A DNA stretch of 64,000 bases, taken from positions 1 to 64,000 of the forward strand of contig JAQVBE010000007.1 of assembly GCA_028690445.1 (NCBI GenBank). Direction: 5' to 3'. The notes beneath the pieces are model-generated. The model was not told the origin of the DNA and did not search any database. It was given only the letters and a program-made list of their open reading frames with translations. The DNA is from Aliarcobacter sp. Lineage in GTDB: Bacteria > Campylobacterota > Campylobacteria > Campylobacterales > Arcobacteraceae. Shown piece after piece: positions 2,351 to 12,502 of this stretch (its first letter is position 1; each line of letters opens with the position of its first letter). The position numbers and the translations under genes are program-made.

Positions 2351-4366
2351 TTAAATCGTGATCTCTTTAATATCAGCGATTTTTCTAAATCCTTGATATA
2401 CTAAACCTATTAGATTTTTTCTATTAGTTTTGATTTTTTCATTTTCATGATTTACAAAAACATTATCAAAAAAACTATCTAATTGTGGTTTTAAAGCAAA
2501 TAGTGCTTCTAATTCTTCATCATAAGTTATAAAAGATTTGAATTTCACTTCATTATATTTTGTATATAACTCTTTTTCTTCACTATTTTCTAATAAATCT
2601 TCATCAATTGTAAGTTTAACTGTAGTATCAACATCTTTAATAATATTTGCAACTCTTTTAAATGTTGCAACATAATCTTTGAAATTATCACTTTGAACTA
2701 TTGGATTTAAAGCACAAATTTTTTGTGAAATTTTGTAAATATCTGTTTCTCCGCTTGCTAAAACTGCTTTTAAAACTGTTGGATTAACTTCAAAAATTTT
2801 AAATAATCTTTCATTAAAGAACTCAATTAATACTTTTTTATCTAAATTTTTATAGTTTATAGATAATCCATCAATAATTTTTGATAAATCTATTGATAAT
2901 TTATGCTCCATTGCAATTTTTACAATTCCAGCTGCTGCTCGTCTTAGAGCAAATGGGTCTTTTGAACCTGTTGGAATTTTACCAACACTAAATAATCCCA
3001 TTAAATTATCTAATTTATTTGATAAAGCTACAATAGATGAGAATACATTTGATGGAAGTTCAGAATCTTCTCCATCTGGTAAATATTGCTCTTTTAAAGC
3101 AGTATAAACCAGTTTATCTTCTCCTGCAAGTTTTGCATAGTAATAACCCATTAAACCTTGTAGTTCTGTGAATTCATAAACCATTTCTGACATTAAATCT
3201 GCTTTTGAAAGCATTACCGCTTTTTGTAAAAGTTCTTTCTCTTTTACATCAAAAACATCTGCTAAATAAGAAGCAATTTTTGCTTCTCTTTCACATTTTT
3301 CATAAGTTGAACCTAAACCTTCAACAAAAACAAGTTTTTTAAGTCCTTCATTTGATAAACCATTTTTAATATCATTTTTATAAAAGAACATTGCATCAGC
3401 AAGTCGTGGTCTTAATACTTTTTCATTTCCAGCAATAATGTAACCAAAGTCTTCTGTTTTTGAGTTTGAAACAACAATAAAATTATTTGTTAAATTTCCA
3501 TCTTTATAAACTGCAAAATATCTTTGGTTTTCTTTCATTGAAGTTACAATTACTTCTTCTGGTAATTCTAAAAATTCAACATCAAACTTTCCAATTAAAG
3601 CTGTAGGATATTCAGTGATTGCAACAACCTCTTCTAAAAGTTCACTATCAATTTCTATTTTAATATTGTGTCTTTGTTCTATATCTTTCATTTGAGAAAG
3701 AATTCTTGTTCTTCTTTCATCTGGATATAAAATTACTCCACTTTTATCAAGTTTGCAGAAATAATCTCCTGCAAAAGAGTAAGAAAATGGCTCATAAGAA
3801 ACCATTCTATGAGCAAATGAGAAATTAGATGATTTAACTCCAAAAAGTTCTGCATCAACTATTTCATCACCTAAAAGAATAGATAAACTTCTGATTGGTC
3901 TAATAAAACTATCAGTTCGGCTTGCCCATCTCATTGATTTTCCAAAATTTAATGAATGAACAAATTCATTAATCATGTCATTTAATAAAGTTTTAGAAGG
4001 ACTTCCTTTTACTTCTTGTTTAAAATAAAGAACTTCACCTTTTCCTAAATCAATTTTTCCAAGTTCTGAAACATCAACACCACATTTAGTAGCAAAACTA
4101 ATAGCAGCACCTGTAGGAATACCATCTTTATAAGCTATTTTAATAGGCGCGCCAAACTGTTCAACAGTTGAATCTTCTTGAGCCACTTGAAACTCTCTAT
4201 GCCACAATACTAACCTTCTTGGTGTATAAAAGAAATCAAATTCACAAAGCAATCTATTTTTTTCTAATATATCACTCCATTTTTTTTCAATATTTGGTAA
4301 TTCATTTAAAAATGGAATCGCTGGTAATTCTTCTACACCAATCTCAATTAATAATGGTTTATTCAT
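2351..4366 (-). CDS. glyS: Glycyl-tRNA synthetase beta subunit
   Basis: Beta chain of the tetrameric (alpha2beta2) glycyl-tRNA synthetase, which carries tRNA-binding and anticodon-recognition functions while the alpha chain activates glycine. The 671-residue protein begins with the family hallmark LLIEIGVEELPAIPF and continues with FDFFYTPRRLVLW, RWASRTDSFIRPIRS and ATEYPTAL-like blocks, an HD-like region with SKADLMSEMVYEFTELQGLMGYYYA, the GSKDPFALRRAAAGIVKI block, and a C-terminal anticodon-binding helical domain. Length is normal for the family. The start ATG at 4366 overlaps the stop of a 51-residue membrane protein by 8 bases, which suggests translational coupling. The alpha subunit gene is not in this window. 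Confidence 0.96.
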   Translation of the reverse strand: MNKPLLIEIGVEELPAIPFLNELPNIEKKWSDILEKNRLLCEFDFFYTPRRLVLWHREFQVAQEDSTVEQFGAPIKIAYKDGIPTGAAISFATKCGVDVSELGKIDLGKGEVLYFKQEVKGSPSKTLLNDMINEFVHSLNFGKSMRWASRTDSFIRPIRSLSILLGDEIVDAELFGVKSSNFSFAHRMVSYEPFSYSFAGDYFCKLDKSGVILYPDERRTRILSQMKDIEQRHNIKIEIDSELLEEVVAITEYPTALIGKFDVEFLELPEEVIVTSMKENQRYFAVYKDGNLTNNFIVVSNSKTEDFGYIIAGNEKVLRPRLADAMFFYKNDIKNGLSNEGLKKLVFVEGLGSTYEKCEREAKIASYLADVFDVKEKELLQKAVMLSKADLMSEMVYEFTELQGLMGYYYAKLAGEDKLVYTALKEQYLPDGEDSELPSNVFSSIVALSNKLDNLMGLFSVGKIPTGSKDPFALRRAAAGIVKIAMEHKLSIDLSKIIDGLSINYKNLDKKVLIEFFNERLFKIFEVNPTVLKAVLASGETDIYKISQKICALNPIVQSDNFKDYVATFKRVANIIKDVDTTVKLTIDEDLLENSEEKELYTKYNEVKFKSFITYDEELEALFALKPQLDSFFDNVFVNHENEKIKTNRKNLIGLVYQGFRKIADIKEITI

Positions 4367-7703: not shown

Positions 7704-8915
7704 ATGAATAATACTTATCTAGAAGCAATTGAAAATTCAAATATAGTATCAAAAACTGATATAAATGGAATTATTACTTTTGTAAATGATGAGTTTTGCA
7801 AAATATCAGGATATTCTTATGATGAATTGGTTGGTCAAAACCATAACATCGTAAGACATCCAGATGTTCCTACTTCAAATTTTGAAACTCTTTGGAAAAC
7901 TATATTAAATAAAAAACCATATAAGGCAACAGTTAAAAACCTCACAAAAGATGGAAAAACTGTATATTTAAATACTACAATTACACCTATTTTAGATGAT
8001 AAATCAAATATTATAGAATTTATTGCAATAAGATATGATGTAACTGCTGAAGTTGAATTAAAAAAACATTTAGAACTAAAAGACAAAGAACTTGAGCAGT
8101 TAAATCTAACATTAGAACAAAAAGTAGTAGAACAAACTAAACAATTAAAAGACTTAAATAAGACTTTAGAACAAAAAGTTGCCCTTGAGATTAAAAAAAA
8201 TGAAGAAAAACAAAAAATGCTTTTTTGGCAATCACGAATGGCAAGTTTAGGTCAAATGCTTGGAAATATAGCTCATCAATGGAGACAACCATTAACTGAG
8301 CTTAATCTAACTTTATTTAATATGAAAAGAGCCTGTACTAAAAATGATGAAAAAAAAGTAGATGAACTATATAAAGAAAGCAAACTTCTTATTTTAAATA
8401 TGTCTTCAACCATAGAAGATTTTTCAAACTTCTTTAATCCACAAAAAGAGAAAAAAAGTTTTGAAATAAAAGAAGCTGTAAATGAAGCTTTGGTTATTTT
8501 GAGAAAAGTAATAGAGATGGAAAATATAAACATAAAAATAGATGTTCCAATAAAATATAAGGTTTTAGGAGTATCTAACGAATTATCTCAAGTAATTATT
8601 AATCTAATTCAAAACTCAAAAGATGCTTTTAAAATAAATGATATTAAAAATAAAAAAATTACAATAACTCTTAAAGAAGAGCATATTTTAGATAAAAAAT
8701 ATTCGTTACTTGAAATAAGTGATAATGCAGGTGGAATAAGTAAAGAAAATGCTGATAAGATATTTGAACCATATTTTACGACTAAACATAAATCTCAAGG
8801 AACAGGACTTGGACTTTTTATGTCTAAAATGATTATTGAAAAAAGTTTAGATGGAGAGTTAATCCATGAAAATATAAAAAATGGTTCTTTATTTACCATA
8901 AAATTAGTTTTATAA
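7704..8915 (+). CDS. Cytoplasmic PAS-domain sensor histidine kinase
   Basis: A 403-residue kinase without membrane segments. Residues 1-115 form a PAS domain with the NIVRHPDVP motif typical of the Aer-like redox/energy-sensing type; residues 118-170 are a coiled coil; the H-box GNIAHQWRQPL places the phospho-histidine at H191; then follow an N-box (LSQVIINLIQNSKDAF), the G1 box EISDNAGGIS and the G2 box GTGLGLFMSK. All ATP-site motifs look intact. The cognate regulator follows 15 bases later. It sits between hemB and the convergent anaerobic ribonucleotide reductase genes, so a redox or oxygen-related signal is plausible but is an inference; the PAS cofactor is not proven. Confidence 0.92.
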   Translation: MNNTYLEAIENSNIVSKTDINGIITFVNDEFCKISGYSYDELVGQNHNIVRHPDVPTSNFETLWKTILNKKPYKATVKNLTKDGKTVYLNTTITPILDDKSNIIEFIAIRYDVTAEVELKKHLELKDKELEQLNLTLEQKVVEQTKQLKDLNKTLEQKVALEIKKNEEKQKMLFWQSRMASLGQMLGNIAHQWRQPLTELNLTLFNMKRACTKNDEKKVDELYKESKLLILNMSSTIEDFSNFFNPQKEKKSFEIKEAVNEALVILRKVIEMENINIKIDVPIKYKVLGVSNELSQVIINLIQNSKDAFKINDIKNKKITITLKEEHILDKKYSLLEISDNAGGISKENADKIFEPYFTTKHKSQGTGLGLFMSKMIIEKSLDGELIHENIKNGSLFTIKLVL

Positions 8916-8930
8916 AAAATAGGAAAATAA

Positions 8931-9611
8931 ATGAATTATGAATTACTAAAAACACTAAAAATTTTAATTGTAGAAGATGAAAAAAGATTAGCACAACTTT
9001 TAAAAGATGCTATTTCTGATTCATTTTTTTCTGTTGTAATTGCAAAAGACGGAAATGAAGGGTTAAAAAAATTCAAAAGCTTTAAACCAGATATTATAAT
9101 AACAGATATTATGATGCCTGTATGTGATGGATTAGATATGACAATCAAAATAAAAAAATTAGATGGAAATATACCAATTATAGTTTTAAGCGCTCATTCT
9201 GATAAAGAACAACTTTTAAAAGCTATTGATATAGGCATAAACAAATATTTTATAAAACCATTTGATCCAGAAGAAGTAATAGAGCATATAAATAAAATAG
9301 CACCTTTTTTAAATAAAAAAAGACAGGTAAAACTAAAAGAAGATTTTATGTTTGATAATAATTCAATGTCTTTATATAAAAATACAGTATTAATAAATTT
9401 AACAAAAAGAGAAAAAGAGTTTATTCATCTATTAATAAAAGTTAATAATAAAGTGGTCGATTCTGAATATATAAAAGAAAACCTTTGGAATGAAGAAGTA
9501 AATGATGAAAGATTAAGAACTTTTATAAAAAGATTAAGAATAAAAACATCAAAAGATATTATAGAAAATATATCAGGGCAAGGGTATTTAATTTCTATAT
9601 TGGATAGTTAA
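8931..9611 (+). CDS. OmpR-type response regulator
   Basis: Receiver domain (residues 10-125) with acidic residues in VEDEKR, phospho-acceptor D59 in IIITDIMMP, switch serine in IVLSAHSD and conserved lysine in YFIKPFDPEEV, followed by a winged-helix DNA-binding domain (about 135-226, LTKREKEFIHLL and RLRTFIKRLRIK). It is the partner of the PAS kinase 15 bases upstream. Its 3' end overlaps the 3' end of the convergent nrdG by 24 bases, so the two transcripts are complementary there. The target genes are unknown. Confidence 0.92.
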   Translation: MNYELLKTLKILIVEDEKRLAQLLKDAISDSFFSVVIAKDGNEGLKKFKSFKPDIIITDIMMPVCDGLDMTIKIKKLDGNIPIIVLSAHSDKEQLLKAIDIGINKYFIKPFDPEEVIEHINKIAPFLNKKRQVKLKEDFMFDNNSMSLYKNTVLINLTKREKEFIHLLIKVNNKVVDSEYIKENLWNEEVNDERLRTFIKRLRIKTSKDIIENISGQGYLISILDS

Positions 9612-10292
9612 ATTTTGGCAATCTATTTTATTTTTATCAATATCTGAAGATTTAGAAATATTTCCAATATTTGATGAGGTTTCTAAAAAATTTTGTAAAT
9701 AATATGTTTTTTTATAACCTAAGTTACTAATAGTTTTTATCATCTCATTAATATCATTTTCATCAAGTAAAGATTTATTAATAGTGGTTCGTAATTCAAA
9801 ATTAAAATCTATTTTTATCAAGTATTGTATAGTCTTAATAGTATTATCATACATATCAACCCCTACAATTTTTTTGAATTTATTGCTAGGTGCTTTAAAA
9901 TCAATGGCAATATAATCTAATAAATTTAAATCTATGAGTTTTTTTATTTGTGGTAAATTTGTTGCATTTGTATCGAGTTTTATTTTAAAACCCATTTTTT
10001 TTATTTCTATACATAGTGGAATTAAGTTATGAATAGTAGCTTCTCCACCTGATAATACAACAGCATCAAGAAGTCCTATTCTTGCTTTTAAAAATTCAAG
10101 AACATCATTTTGCGTATAATTACCTTTTTTTGTATAAACTATAATATCATTATAGCAATACAAACATCTAAAATTACAAGATACAAACCAAACTATGCAA
10201 GACAAATGCCCTACATAGTCAGTTGTTGTAAATTTTGTAATGTTATATACAATCTTTTGATTCAATAAATTTAATTCTTTGATTGTGTTCAC
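9588..10292 (-). CDS. nrdG: Anaerobic ribonucleoside-triphosphate reductase activating protein (radical SAM)
   Basis: Radical-SAM activase that installs the glycyl radical on class III ribonucleotide reductase. The 234-residue protein has the iron-sulfur motif CNFRCLYC (C39, C43, C46), the SAM-binding VVLSGGEATIH segment, and KLDTNATN and DYIAIDFKAP strands. It starts with GTG at 10292, inside the 3' end of the short glycyl-radical frame (overlap 50 bases), so the three genes nrdD, the radical tail and nrdG form a tight, translation-coupled set. It is longer than the E. coli protein but in the range of the group that includes pyruvate formate-lyase-activase-like NrdG proteins. Confidence 0.92.
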   Translation of the reverse strand: MNTIKELNLLNQKIVYNITKFTTTDYVGHLSCIVWFVSCNFRCLYCYNDIIVYTKKGNYTQNDVLEFLKARIGLLDAVVLSGGEATIHNLIPLCIEIKKMGFKIKLDTNATNLPQIKKLIDLNLLDYIAIDFKAPSNKFKKIVGVDMYDNTIKTIQYLIKIDFNFELRTTINKSLLDENDINEMIKTISNLGYKKTYYLQNFLETSSNIGNISKSSDIDKNKIDCQNLTIQYRN

Positions 10293-10410
10293 CTTTTTTA
10301 CCTAAATTAAAGCTCTCAACTGGTCTATGGTAACCCATAACCCTTGTATAAACCATACACTTTGTTCTTTTTTCACTATGCTTTTCAAGCAATTCTTGAC
10401 TTTTCATCAT
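10243..10410 (-). CDS. Separate glycyl-radical domain of anaerobic ribonucleotide reductase (C-terminal NrdD part)
   Basis: A 55-codon frame starting with two ATG codons at 10410, preceded by AAGGAG at good spacing inside the end of nrdD. It encodes KRTKCMVYTRVMGYHRPVE followed by SFNLGKKGEH. This is the segment that, in full-length class III reductases, carries the radical glycine (RVxGY; here G26) and closes the C-terminus. The upstream 705-residue NrdD stops at 10385 after its zinc-ribbon cysteines and has no RVxGY motif of its own. The short product is therefore needed for a working enzyme, either as a separate subunit or through frameshifting into this +1 frame. Split gene and motif are seen; the mechanism is inferred. 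Confidence 0.8.
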   Translation of the reverse strand: MMKSQELLEKHSEKRTKCMVYTRVMGYHRPVESFNLGKKGEHNQRIKFIESKDCI

Positions 10411-12502
10411 TTTTTAACTCCTTTTTTAAGATTTCATCATCACATTTTGGACAATATTCATGTTCACCTGGTAAGTACCCATGAATATCACAAACTGAAA
10501 ATAGTGGTGTTACAGTAATATAAGGCAATTTAAAGTTTGTTATTGTGTTTTTTACAAATTTTCTACAAGCATCTGTTGAAGATATTCTCTCATTCATGTA
10601 TAAGTGTAATACTGTTCCACCTGTATATTTACATTGTAATTCATCTTGTAAAGATAAGGCTTCAAATGGATCCTCTGTATAATCAACAGGAAGTTGTGAA
10701 GAATTTGTATAATAAATATTCTTACCATTTCCCGCTTGAATTATTTCTTTATATCTTTTCTTATCTTCTTTTGCAAATCTATATGTAGTTCCCTCCGCTG
10801 GTGTTGCTTCAAGATTGTATAAATTTCCTGTTTCTTCTTGAAATTTAATCATTTTTTCTCTCATAAAATCTAAAATTTCAATACAAAAATCATTTCCTAT
10901 TTTAGAAGAAACATCAATATCTTCTTTAAAATAATTCTTCACCATTTCATTCATACCATTTACTCCAATAGTAGAAAAATGGTTGTTAAAGTTTGGTAAA
11001 TATCTTTTTGTATAAGGATAAAGACCCCTTTCATACATATCTTGTACAAAAACTCTTTTCTTTTCAAGTGTCGATTTTGCAAGCTCCATTAACTCTTCTA
11101 GTCTTGAAAAGAAGCCTTTTGAATCATTTTTGTATAAGTATCCAAGTCTTGCCATATTAATAGTTACAACTCCAATACTTCCTGTCATCTCAGCTGAGCC
11201 AAAAAGCCCACCACCTCGTTTTAGAAGCTCTCTTAAATCAAGCTGTAATCTACAACACATACTTCTTACATGACCTGGTTTGTATGCTTTTTCATTTGGA
11301 ACTAGATTCCCATTTTCATCTTTTTCATATTGACTACCTATGAAGTTTTGGAAATATGAACTTCCTATTTTTGCAGTATTTTCAAATAAAACATCAGTAT
11401 TTTCTCCATACCAATCAAAATCTTCAGTAATATTTACTGTTGGAATTGGAAAAGTAAAAGGTTGTCCTGTTTTATCACCTTGTGTCATAACTTCATAATA
11501 AGCCTTATTTATTTGATTCATCTCTTTTTGAAAATCTTTATAAGTTAACTCTTCAAATGATTTATAACCTTTTTCTTTTATTCTTTCTAATAATTCTTCA
11601 TTTTGAAAATCTTTAAAAAGATGTTTTTGATTTTTCGTTGGAATTTGATCTTTTAAATCAGAAGGAACCGTCCAATCAATAGTAATATTTGTAAATGGGC
11701 TTTGTCCCCAACGAGCAGGAACATTTAAGTTATAAATGAAAGATCTAACAGCTTTTTTGATTTCACTATAAGACAAATTATCTTTAAACACATAAGGTGC
11801 TAAATATGTATCAAAACTACTAAAAGCTTGAGCACCAGCCCATTCACTTTGTAAAATTCCCAAAAAGTTTGCCATTTGTCCTAATGCTTCTCTAAAATGA
11901 CTAGGAGCTGTACTTTCAACTCTTCCTCTAACCCCATTAAATCCCTCATCAAGTAAAACTCTTAAACTCCAACCAGCACAATATCCACTTAAACAATCTA
12001 AATCATGAATATGATAATCAGCGTTTCTATGAGCATAACCCTCTTCTTTTGAATAAACTTTATCAAGCCAATAATTTGCAATTACTTTTCCAGCACTATT
12101 ATTTATAAGCCCAGCATGAGAATATCCAGTATTTGAATTTGCTTTTATTCTCCAATCATTTCCATTTATATACTCTTGAATAGTTTGAGTTGAATTTATA
12201 TATGTAGTATCAGATTCAATTTGAAGTATTTGTTCTCTTTGGATTTTATGTAAATGTCTATATAAAATAAAAGATTTCATAACATCAAAATATCTAGCTT
12301 TAAATAACTCTTTTTCTATAATATCTTGTATATCTTCAACAGCTACTAATCTTTTTTGTTTTATTTCAAATAAAACATTAAAAAATATAGAAATATCATA
12401 TTGGATATTTACACTTTTAAATGCTTTTTTTATTGCATCCTCTATTTTAAATGATTCAAAAATTTGTTTACTACCATCTCTTTTTAATATACTCTCAATC
12501 AT
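10385..12502 (-). CDS. nrdD: Anaerobic ribonucleoside-triphosphate reductase, catalytic body without its glycyl-radical tail
   Basis: Class III enzyme reducing NTPs to dNTPs without oxygen. Residues 1-90 form an ATP-cone allosteric domain (ILKRDGSKQIFESFKIEDAI). The catalytic barrel includes HIHDLDCLSGYCAGWSLR, GAQAFSSFDTYLAPYV, the VRSMCCRLQLDLREL cysteines and RGGGLFGSAEMTGSIGVV. The end carries VCDIHGYLPGEHEYCPKC, part of the zinc site. It stops there at 705 residues; the RVxGY radical motif that normally follows lies in the overlapping 55-codon frame downstream. AAAAAGGAAAT precedes the ATG at 12502. No conserved regulator site could be assigned upstream. Confidence 0.95.
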   Translation of the reverse strand: MIESILKRDGSKQIFESFKIEDAIKKAFKSVNIQYDISIFFNVLFEIKQKRLVAVEDIQDIIEKELFKARYFDVMKSFILYRHLHKIQREQILQIESDTTYINSTQTIQEYINGNDWRIKANSNTGYSHAGLINNSAGKVIANYWLDKVYSKEEGYAHRNADYHIHDLDCLSGYCAGWSLRVLLDEGFNGVRGRVESTAPSHFREALGQMANFLGILQSEWAGAQAFSSFDTYLAPYVFKDNLSYSEIKKAVRSFIYNLNVPARWGQSPFTNITIDWTVPSDLKDQIPTKNQKHLFKDFQNEELLERIKEKGYKSFEELTYKDFQKEMNQINKAYYEVMTQGDKTGQPFTFPIPTVNITEDFDWYGENTDVLFENTAKIGSSYFQNFIGSQYEKDENGNLVPNEKAYKPGHVRSMCCRLQLDLRELLKRGGGLFGSAEMTGSIGVVTINMARLGYLYKNDSKGFFSRLEELMELAKSTLEKKRVFVQDMYERGLYPYTKRYLPNFNNHFSTIGVNGMNEMVKNYFKEDIDVSSKIGNDFCIEILDFMREKMIKFQEETGNLYNLEATPAEGTTYRFAKEDKKRYKEIIQAGNGKNIYYTNSSQLPVDYTEDPFEALSLQDELQCKYTGGTVLHLYMNERISSTDACRKFVKNTITNFKLPYITVTPLFSVCDIHGYLPGEHEYCPKCDDEILKKELKNDEKSRIA

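Follow-up and report, generated by a model that had tools for sequence, protein, structure and literature searches.

A class III ribonucleotide reductase of Aliarcobacter whose predicted glycyl-radical site is encoded by a separate small gene

The closest described counterparts of the reductase reported here are the NrdD/NrdG systems of T4, T. maritima and P. copri, with which it shares an ATP-cone, a barrel, finger-loop cysteines, a zinc ribbon, an RVxGY-type radical loop and an adjacent nrdG, and from which it differs in the placing of that loop: theirs forms the C-terminal end of the catalytic chain itself, whereas here it is the product of a separate gene. In the portions of the literature available to us, the glycyl radical of T4 NrdD is given at position 580 (by the title of a referenced paper), the radical domain of P. 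copri NrdD spans residues 676-739 with Gly711 (PMC11226230), and oxygen is described to cut these enzymes at the glycyl radical (PMC3019208). Free-standing glycyl-radical proteins that act in trans on a larger barrel enzyme are represented by YfiD/GrcA and by the phage-borne Y06I of T4; the accessible part of the source describing them reports validated spare parts for PFL only, and considers that such parts may exist for other glycyl radical enzymes (PMC8683613). YfiD, however, backs up a complete PFL, whereas the peptide described here would be obligatory and would have the reductase as its target. A second parallel is offered by NrdJa/NrdJb of Pseudomonas aeruginosa, a reductase likewise cut towards its C-terminus into two co-operating chains, although it belongs to class II (B12-dependent, with a small chain for disulfide exchange), whereas PF13597 places the present core in class III. 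The split NrdJ is stated, in the available text of one source, to be the only split ribonucleotide reductase outside viruses (PMC4520616). Within the literature covered (titles, abstract openings or passages, mostly from outside subscription journals), we recognised neither a split class III reductase nor a phage radical peptide for one.

In the window (i.e. the whole 64,000-nucleotide stretch of Aliarcobacter sp. DNA that was analysed), the reductase genes follow each other on one strand (Table 1). A preliminary description, made from the letters alone, had held that nrdD stops at 10385 after its zinc-ribbon cysteines and without an RVxGY motif, and the sequence bears this out: the zinc ribbon (CDIHGYLPGEHEYCPKC) precedes the stop codon, the C-terminal end is ...HEYCPKCDDEILKKELKNDEKSRIA, and by sequence reading the motif is absent from the core (the motifs that we take to be the finger loop and the zinc ribbon were named by comparison). 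The same description had proposed that the radical tail is a separate 55-codon gene, opening with ATGATG behind an AAGGAG in the +1 frame, and that the GTG start of nrdG lies inside it; both statements stood, and the former gained from the complementary Pfam halves presented below. The 55-codon frame starts with ATGATG, holds KRTKCMVYTRVMGYHRPVESFNLGKKGEH as a single contiguous stretch, shares 26 nt with the 3' end of nrdD (read there in the +1 frame), and has an in-frame TAA two codons upstream of the ATGATG, while the nrdG start (10292) falls within it. The radical glycine of the 55-aa peptide is predicted to be residue 26, and the computed masses of peptide and core are 6,601 Da and 81,732 Da, respectively. 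The activase is of the NrdG2 type (TIGR02495, 184 bits against a cut-off of 131), with a PF04055 match as well. At its 3' end nrdG overlaps convergently (9588-9611) with the end of a response-regulator-like gene (8931-9611, plus strand), which comes after a PAS-type histidine kinase-like gene (7704-8915, plus strand), both named by eye.

Table 1. Coordinates of the reductase genes and the associated ribosome-binding motif in the window
Feature	Position	Strand	Description
nrdD core	10385..12502	minus	class III ribonucleotide reductase catalytic subunit, 705 aa, without radical loop; comprises an ATP-cone and a barrel, a presumed finger loop (SMCC at residue 414) and a zinc ribbon (CxxH..CPKC)
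Glycyl-radical peptide gene	10243..10410	minus	separate gene, 55 aa, TRVMGYHRP
Shine-Dalgarno AAGGAG	10418..10423	minus	7 nt upstream of the peptide ATG, within the nrdD coding end
nrdG	9588..10292	minus	radical-SAM activase, 234 aa from GTG; overlaps the end of the peptide gene

Domain searches divide a single family between the two products. PF13597 (NRDD, 562 positions) is matched by the core over positions 2-531 (539 bits) and by the 55-mer over positions 530-562 (28.6 bits, above the gathering score of 26.2), the latter match being more than chance and beginning exactly where that of the core ends. The core further carries PF03477 on residues 4-86 and matches positions 2-660 of the 684 of NF006126 (1088 bits); NF006126 and TIGR02487 reproduce the complementary pattern seen with Pfam, with the 55-mer alone scoring far under these whole-protein cut-offs. 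NrdD relatives of the core were found in the PDB, whose sequences gave no match to the 55-mer up to an E-value of 10. From the attributes of a class III NrdD, the locus has the NRDD catalytic domain and fold (PF13597 on the core, and a Campylobacter concisus model), an NrdG radical-SAM activase as the next gene, and the RVxGY radical motif, but the last in the separate 55-aa protein, so that barrel and radical glycine do not share one polypeptide. Nor is the peptide a YfiD/GrcA protein, as it matches PF13597 and not PF01228 (E-values up to 1), which we take to be the defining domain of YfiD. The genome itself (99.98% complete) holds only two PF13597 matches, which are the two split pieces; a second complete nrdD, named in the preliminary description as a finding that would speak against the split, was looked for with PF13597 and is absent, and no PFL-type Gly_radical (PF01228) protein was found in this genome either. 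The peptide thus does not back up a complete NrdD, and there is no obvious other enzyme for it to serve (service to another glycyl radical enzyme was considered, and rejected as the genome gave no PF01228 match); since no NrdD that includes a radical loop was found in the genome, the core would depend on the peptide as an obligatory part.

Among 60 related genomes (its own included), the core was matched in 40, in two of them weakly (G034 and G048). All 30 close loci that were fetched (again with its own genome) are split, keep RVxGYHRP intact and have, by a loose pattern, a Shine-Dalgarno-like motif ahead of the tail ATG. Over the central 23 codons of the peptide, pN/pS came to 0.08 in comparisons with the window and to 0.07 when all pairs were taken (28 loci, 23 distinct), showing that the peptide is under purifying selection, and an alignment of 11 rows (A1) contains invariant peptide residues. 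Phylum-wide, 185 of 397 Campylobacterota genomes have a core over the NF006126 cut-off (209 with any match), and the peptide, counted separately, also occurs in 185 of the 397. Conservation across Campylobacterota had been proposed in the preliminary description as a check, and the split proved to be kept in 29 of the 30 best-scoring phylum loci (single-contig genomes included) and to reach beyond the phylum; the remaining locus is fused (L033, 922 aa), and a second fused form (L281) turned up outside these 30. The core match in the 922-codon fused frame of L033 covers approximately 860 residues, as against the usual 700 or so, an insert or an intein being candidate causes.

When named genomes were scanned for the aligned peptides, at least 577 relatives among 589 stretches were returned, the best 80 loci of which were used; because the query was a split peptide, this sample is biased towards split forms. 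In 79 of these 80 the peptide occupies its own stop-bounded frame, free of the core, and the last one (L133), truncated by a contig end, was excluded from the split count; the split loci include Campylobacter, Sulfurospirillum, Sulfurimonas, Flavobacterium, Algoriphagus, Cyclobacterium, Parapedobacter and one Akkermansia MAG. A core frame of more than 600 codons is present in 71 of the 80, the other nine consisting of six with a partial core and three with none (L078, L121 and L133), and in one split locus (L077) the core ends in another frame with TGA. Across 70 linked pairs (L077 left out), the core-peptide frame offset is 1 in 46, 2 in 14 and 0 in 10, and the spacing ranges from -107 to +852 nt (as starts were set at the first possible codon, large overlaps may be overstated). 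Two MAG contigs labelled Bifidobacterium breve (L093) and Klebsiella pneumoniae (L121) bear Flavobacterium-like peptide genes and are probably misbinned.

Outside Campylobacterota, the split is also present in Bacteroidota, Verrucomicrobiota and Pseudomonadota, with each of the three relative frames represented, and unbiased sampling reveals a patchy distribution. Of 296 sampled Bacteroidota genomes 17 match the peptide profile (eight in short frames of 56-92 codons, eight within fused frames of more than 700 codons and one weakly); Verrucomicrobiota match in 63 of 145, with 16 strong cases (E-values under 1e-22, frames of 72-117 codons) and a weak, mixed remainder. Within the latter phylum we observed a second, more distant split clade with VYSRVCGYFRPV-type peptides (L290-L294, L171, L173, L174 and L176), and one genome with six peptide matches, some of them orphan copies. 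For plasmids of Pseudomonadota (Cupriavidus necator pHG1, Bradyrhizobium, Sulfuricystis, Azospira and Shinella), the RefSeq annotation lists three separate genes, namely the core, a small 'nrdD' and nrdG, and a single fused protein is found in Acidiphilium, Actinomyces and Geoalkalibacter. Plasmids of Allochromatium vinosum and A. tepidum carry orphan peptide genes (L146:3998-4207 and L305:2460-2645) annotated as nrdD, with neither core nor nrdG annotated beside them, and one fused NrdD (L296, G822 C26) ends in what appears by eye to be a glutaredoxin domain.

In five Campylobacterota genomes (G125, G253, G234, G211 and G395) a cassette of peptide gene and nrdG lies far from the core. The cassette was read in all five and the core locus in four (the core of G211 was placed by search position alone), and in the four core loci read the peptide is absent beside the core. 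Genes as far apart as in these five genomes cannot be joined by any recoding event; core and peptide are likewise separated in some Verrucomicrobiota of the more distant clade. A tree was made of 59 hand-chosen cores (L301, a core fragment, was left out). Of the 33 rows in one well-supported clade, which come mainly from Campylobacterota and Bacteroidota but also include an Akkermansia MAG, a PVC MAG and one virus, 31 are split. The fused forms of L033, L281, Acidiphilium, Actinomyces and Verruc770 are nested in split clades, from which it follows that two parts and one chain interconvert. A single origin of the split was not borne out by this tree, which needs at least seven changes between split and fused states, at least five of them forced by well-supported branches. 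The natural fusion of the same two parts argues that core and peptide work together; in these fusions the tail sits exactly at the C-terminus.

For a structural view, the Campylobacter concisus pair was folded as one chain with AlphaFold, its single in-frame stop being read as Gln. This tethered model has a mean pLDDT of 72.9 (73 for the block with the peptide glycine), and values under 50 for residues 410-442 (about the finger loop) and 732-760, so that it is uninformative on the cysteine-glycine distance. Compared with solved NrdD structures it reached Z-scores of 22-26, and its alignments to T4 NrdD (1h7a) and to the T. maritima enzyme (4coi) end, respectively, at Gly729 (the peptide glycine), opposite residue 580, and at 730, opposite residue 622. 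In this model, which is of moderate confidence, the peptide glycine pairs with residue 580 of T4 NrdD, the known radical site; among 21 NrdD rows only these two align up to the peptide glycine, the other 19 ending at model residue 690 or before (the row of the ATP/CTP form of the P. copri enzyme, 8p23, covers model residues 1-679), and the pairing is consequently support rather than proof. The break between core and peptide comes after the zinc site and ahead of the radical loop.

Peptide genes also occur on their own. In Campylobacterota, 18 of the 185 peptide-bearing genomes list two or more matches (counted by eye), and seven extra copies in six genomes (L182, L183, L186, L193, L196, L197 and L199) lie beside neither core nor nrdG, mostly with neighbours whose translations look phage-like by eye. 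Viral contigs, whose records can be fragments or include host DNA, were scanned as well; 132 hits to the search patterns and 128 relatives came out, and the best 80 were used (L201-L280). In 79 of these 80 loci (fetched up to 5 kb to each side, less at ends) the peptide stands without core or nrdG, the sole locus with all three being L214. For 50 of the 80 the search extended over the complete record, and 49 have no core match beyond the peptide; NrdG2 was over the cut-off in one viral record (that of L214), with weak matches in two more. RVxGYHRP is intact in 80 of 80 viral tails, a count that the search patterns favoured. The downstream neighbours in 23 hand-picked viral records were lysis or lysozyme-like genes (8), head, packaging or tail genes (5), others (2), PHROGs of unknown function (4) and genes without a match (4); some of the viral peptide genes adjoin endolysin or holin genes. 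Both the peptide of the window (1.6e-9) and viral peptides (down to 7.9e-12) hit the profile phrog_4132 (179 positions, with no function assigned there), of which they cover approximately positions 110-163. Six viral peptides (L235, L239, L260, L270, L272 and L275) have a longer same-frame upstream part (some 49-129 residues from the first Met to RVxGY), often with a cysteine-containing stretch, and this part is possibly an N-terminal domain, as in YfiD. Among INPHARED phage records there was no match to the window peptide at 1e-5 and none to one viral peptide at 0.01; a third peptide, searched at E-values up to 10, retrieved 17 records (best 3e-4), several annotated as anaerobic reductases, and with these three peptides we found no named isolated phage bearing a lone peptide in INPHARED.

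The split is conserved, the peptide gene has its own start and ribosome site, and in some genomes the genes are unlinked; as judged from sequence, we consider it very probable that the locus encodes a class III reductase made of three gene products, with the glycyl radical carried in trans by a small subunit. Core NrdD would supply the ATP-cone, the barrel, the thiyl-radical finger loop and the zinc ribbon, the free-standing peptide of about 55 residues would bring the radical glycine, and NrdG would act as activase. Translation of the peptide would begin at its own start codon, probably in coupling with the end of nrdD, and the peptide would dock at the site of the C-terminal radical loop of an ordinary NrdD. 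NrdG would generate the radical at residue 26 of the peptide, the glycine, from where it would pass to the finger-loop cysteine of the core at each turnover; assembly, radical placement and catalysis of this three-part enzyme are steps that we infer. The preliminary description had left a choice between a tail acting in trans and ribosomes shifting into it, and the evidence came down strongly for the former. A programmed frameshift or stop readthrough that fuses core and tail into an ordinary NrdD would find room in the A-rich run (TTAAAAAAGGAGTTAAAAAA) at the junction and in the short +1 overlap, but we regard it as highly improbable: the relatives would need different shifts (+1 in some, +2 in others, or none where the frames agree but one or several stops intervene) and differ in the gap too, the peptide has its own Shine-Dalgarno-like motif and ATG in every close locus, the two genes are far apart in five genomes, and the TAA ahead of the ATGATG in the tail frame would confine any shift to the short overlap. 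A sequencing error or decaying pseudogene, for which nothing speaks except the interrupted frame, is next to inconceivable given the same split in all close loci and phylum-wide (single-contig genomes too) and the low pN/pS of the peptide. Relatives with one continuous frame, which the preliminary description had held would count against the split if joined by read evidence of a sequencing error, do exist (the fused L033, L281, Acidiphilium and Actinomyces); these are other species within split clades, and hence no sign of an error in the window.

A self-sufficient core, with the small gene encoding a regulator or an unrelated radical SAM substrate, is to our mind very improbable on sequence grounds, and what favours it comes from Cupriavidus necator. 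Siedow et al., in J. Bacteriol. in 1999, reportedly identified G650 of the 76.2-kDa C. necator NrdD as the radical site, with G650A being functionless. On pHG1, however, the core (L143:1762-3792, computed mass 76,191 Da) has G650 within the zinc-ribbon motif CPTHGYLAGEH, fused relatives possess this motif plus an RVxG[YF] loop, and RVMGY lies in a separate 66-codon gene (3935-4135); the core mass and the position of G650 make it more likely that the true radical glycine of C. necator resides in the small gene. The Aliarcobacter core itself is devoid of RVxGY, and the position of the tail in natural fusions speaks against self-sufficiency as well. According to the part of one source available to us, NrdDG is essential for complete denitrification in C. 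necator, and in C. metallidurans it corresponds to Rmet_5137 and Rmet_5139, with one locus tag between them skipped (PMC2864759); the skipped tag would be the small peptide gene. For the phage copies only, the peptide might be a decoy that poisons or redirects the host reductase. It could occupy the host site, and a number of copies adjoin late or lysis genes, a stage at which the supply of dNTPs may be less important; we nonetheless hold a decoy to be unlikely, as the radical motif is kept in all viral tails (though favoured by the search patterns) and T4 Y06I, the glycyl-radical spare part already known from a phage, brings enzyme activity back according to the accessible text (PMC8683613).

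Taken together, the multi-phylum split and the viral peptide-only copies suggest a replaceable radical part. With less confidence than for the three-part enzyme, we infer that its benefit would be that oxygen destroys just a cheap, replaceable peptide, of which phages likewise carry their own copy; the proposal that the peptide can be exchanged to counter oxygen, with phages carrying spares, is a reasoned hypothesis to which we assign about equal chances of being right or wrong. In hosts with the split enzyme the radical would then sit on an obligatory replaceable subunit, oxygen damage would be mended by a peptide swap, and phages would bring a spare, the lone phage or prophage peptide (approximately 50 residues) being, on an evenly balanced judgement, an exchangeable radical cartridge for the host class III reductase. 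If the cartridge reading is true, phrog_4132, a phage family without an assigned function, gains one. Oxygen kills glycyl radical enzymes by a chain cut at the radical, a replacement part having been validated, in the available text, for PFL alone (PMC8683613). The split class III enzyme would also correct the statement that split NrdJ is the sole split ribonucleotide reductase outside viruses, at least as worded in the accessible part of that source (PMC4520616). As core, peptide and activase could be added separately, they would allow radical transfer and the repair of oxygen damage to be studied cleanly in vitro, and the radical-site assignment reported for C. necator may require re-reading, given that G650 of the core is in the zinc ribbon. 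If the three-part enzyme is true, the radical would be a removable subunit of an essential enzyme, in several phyla.
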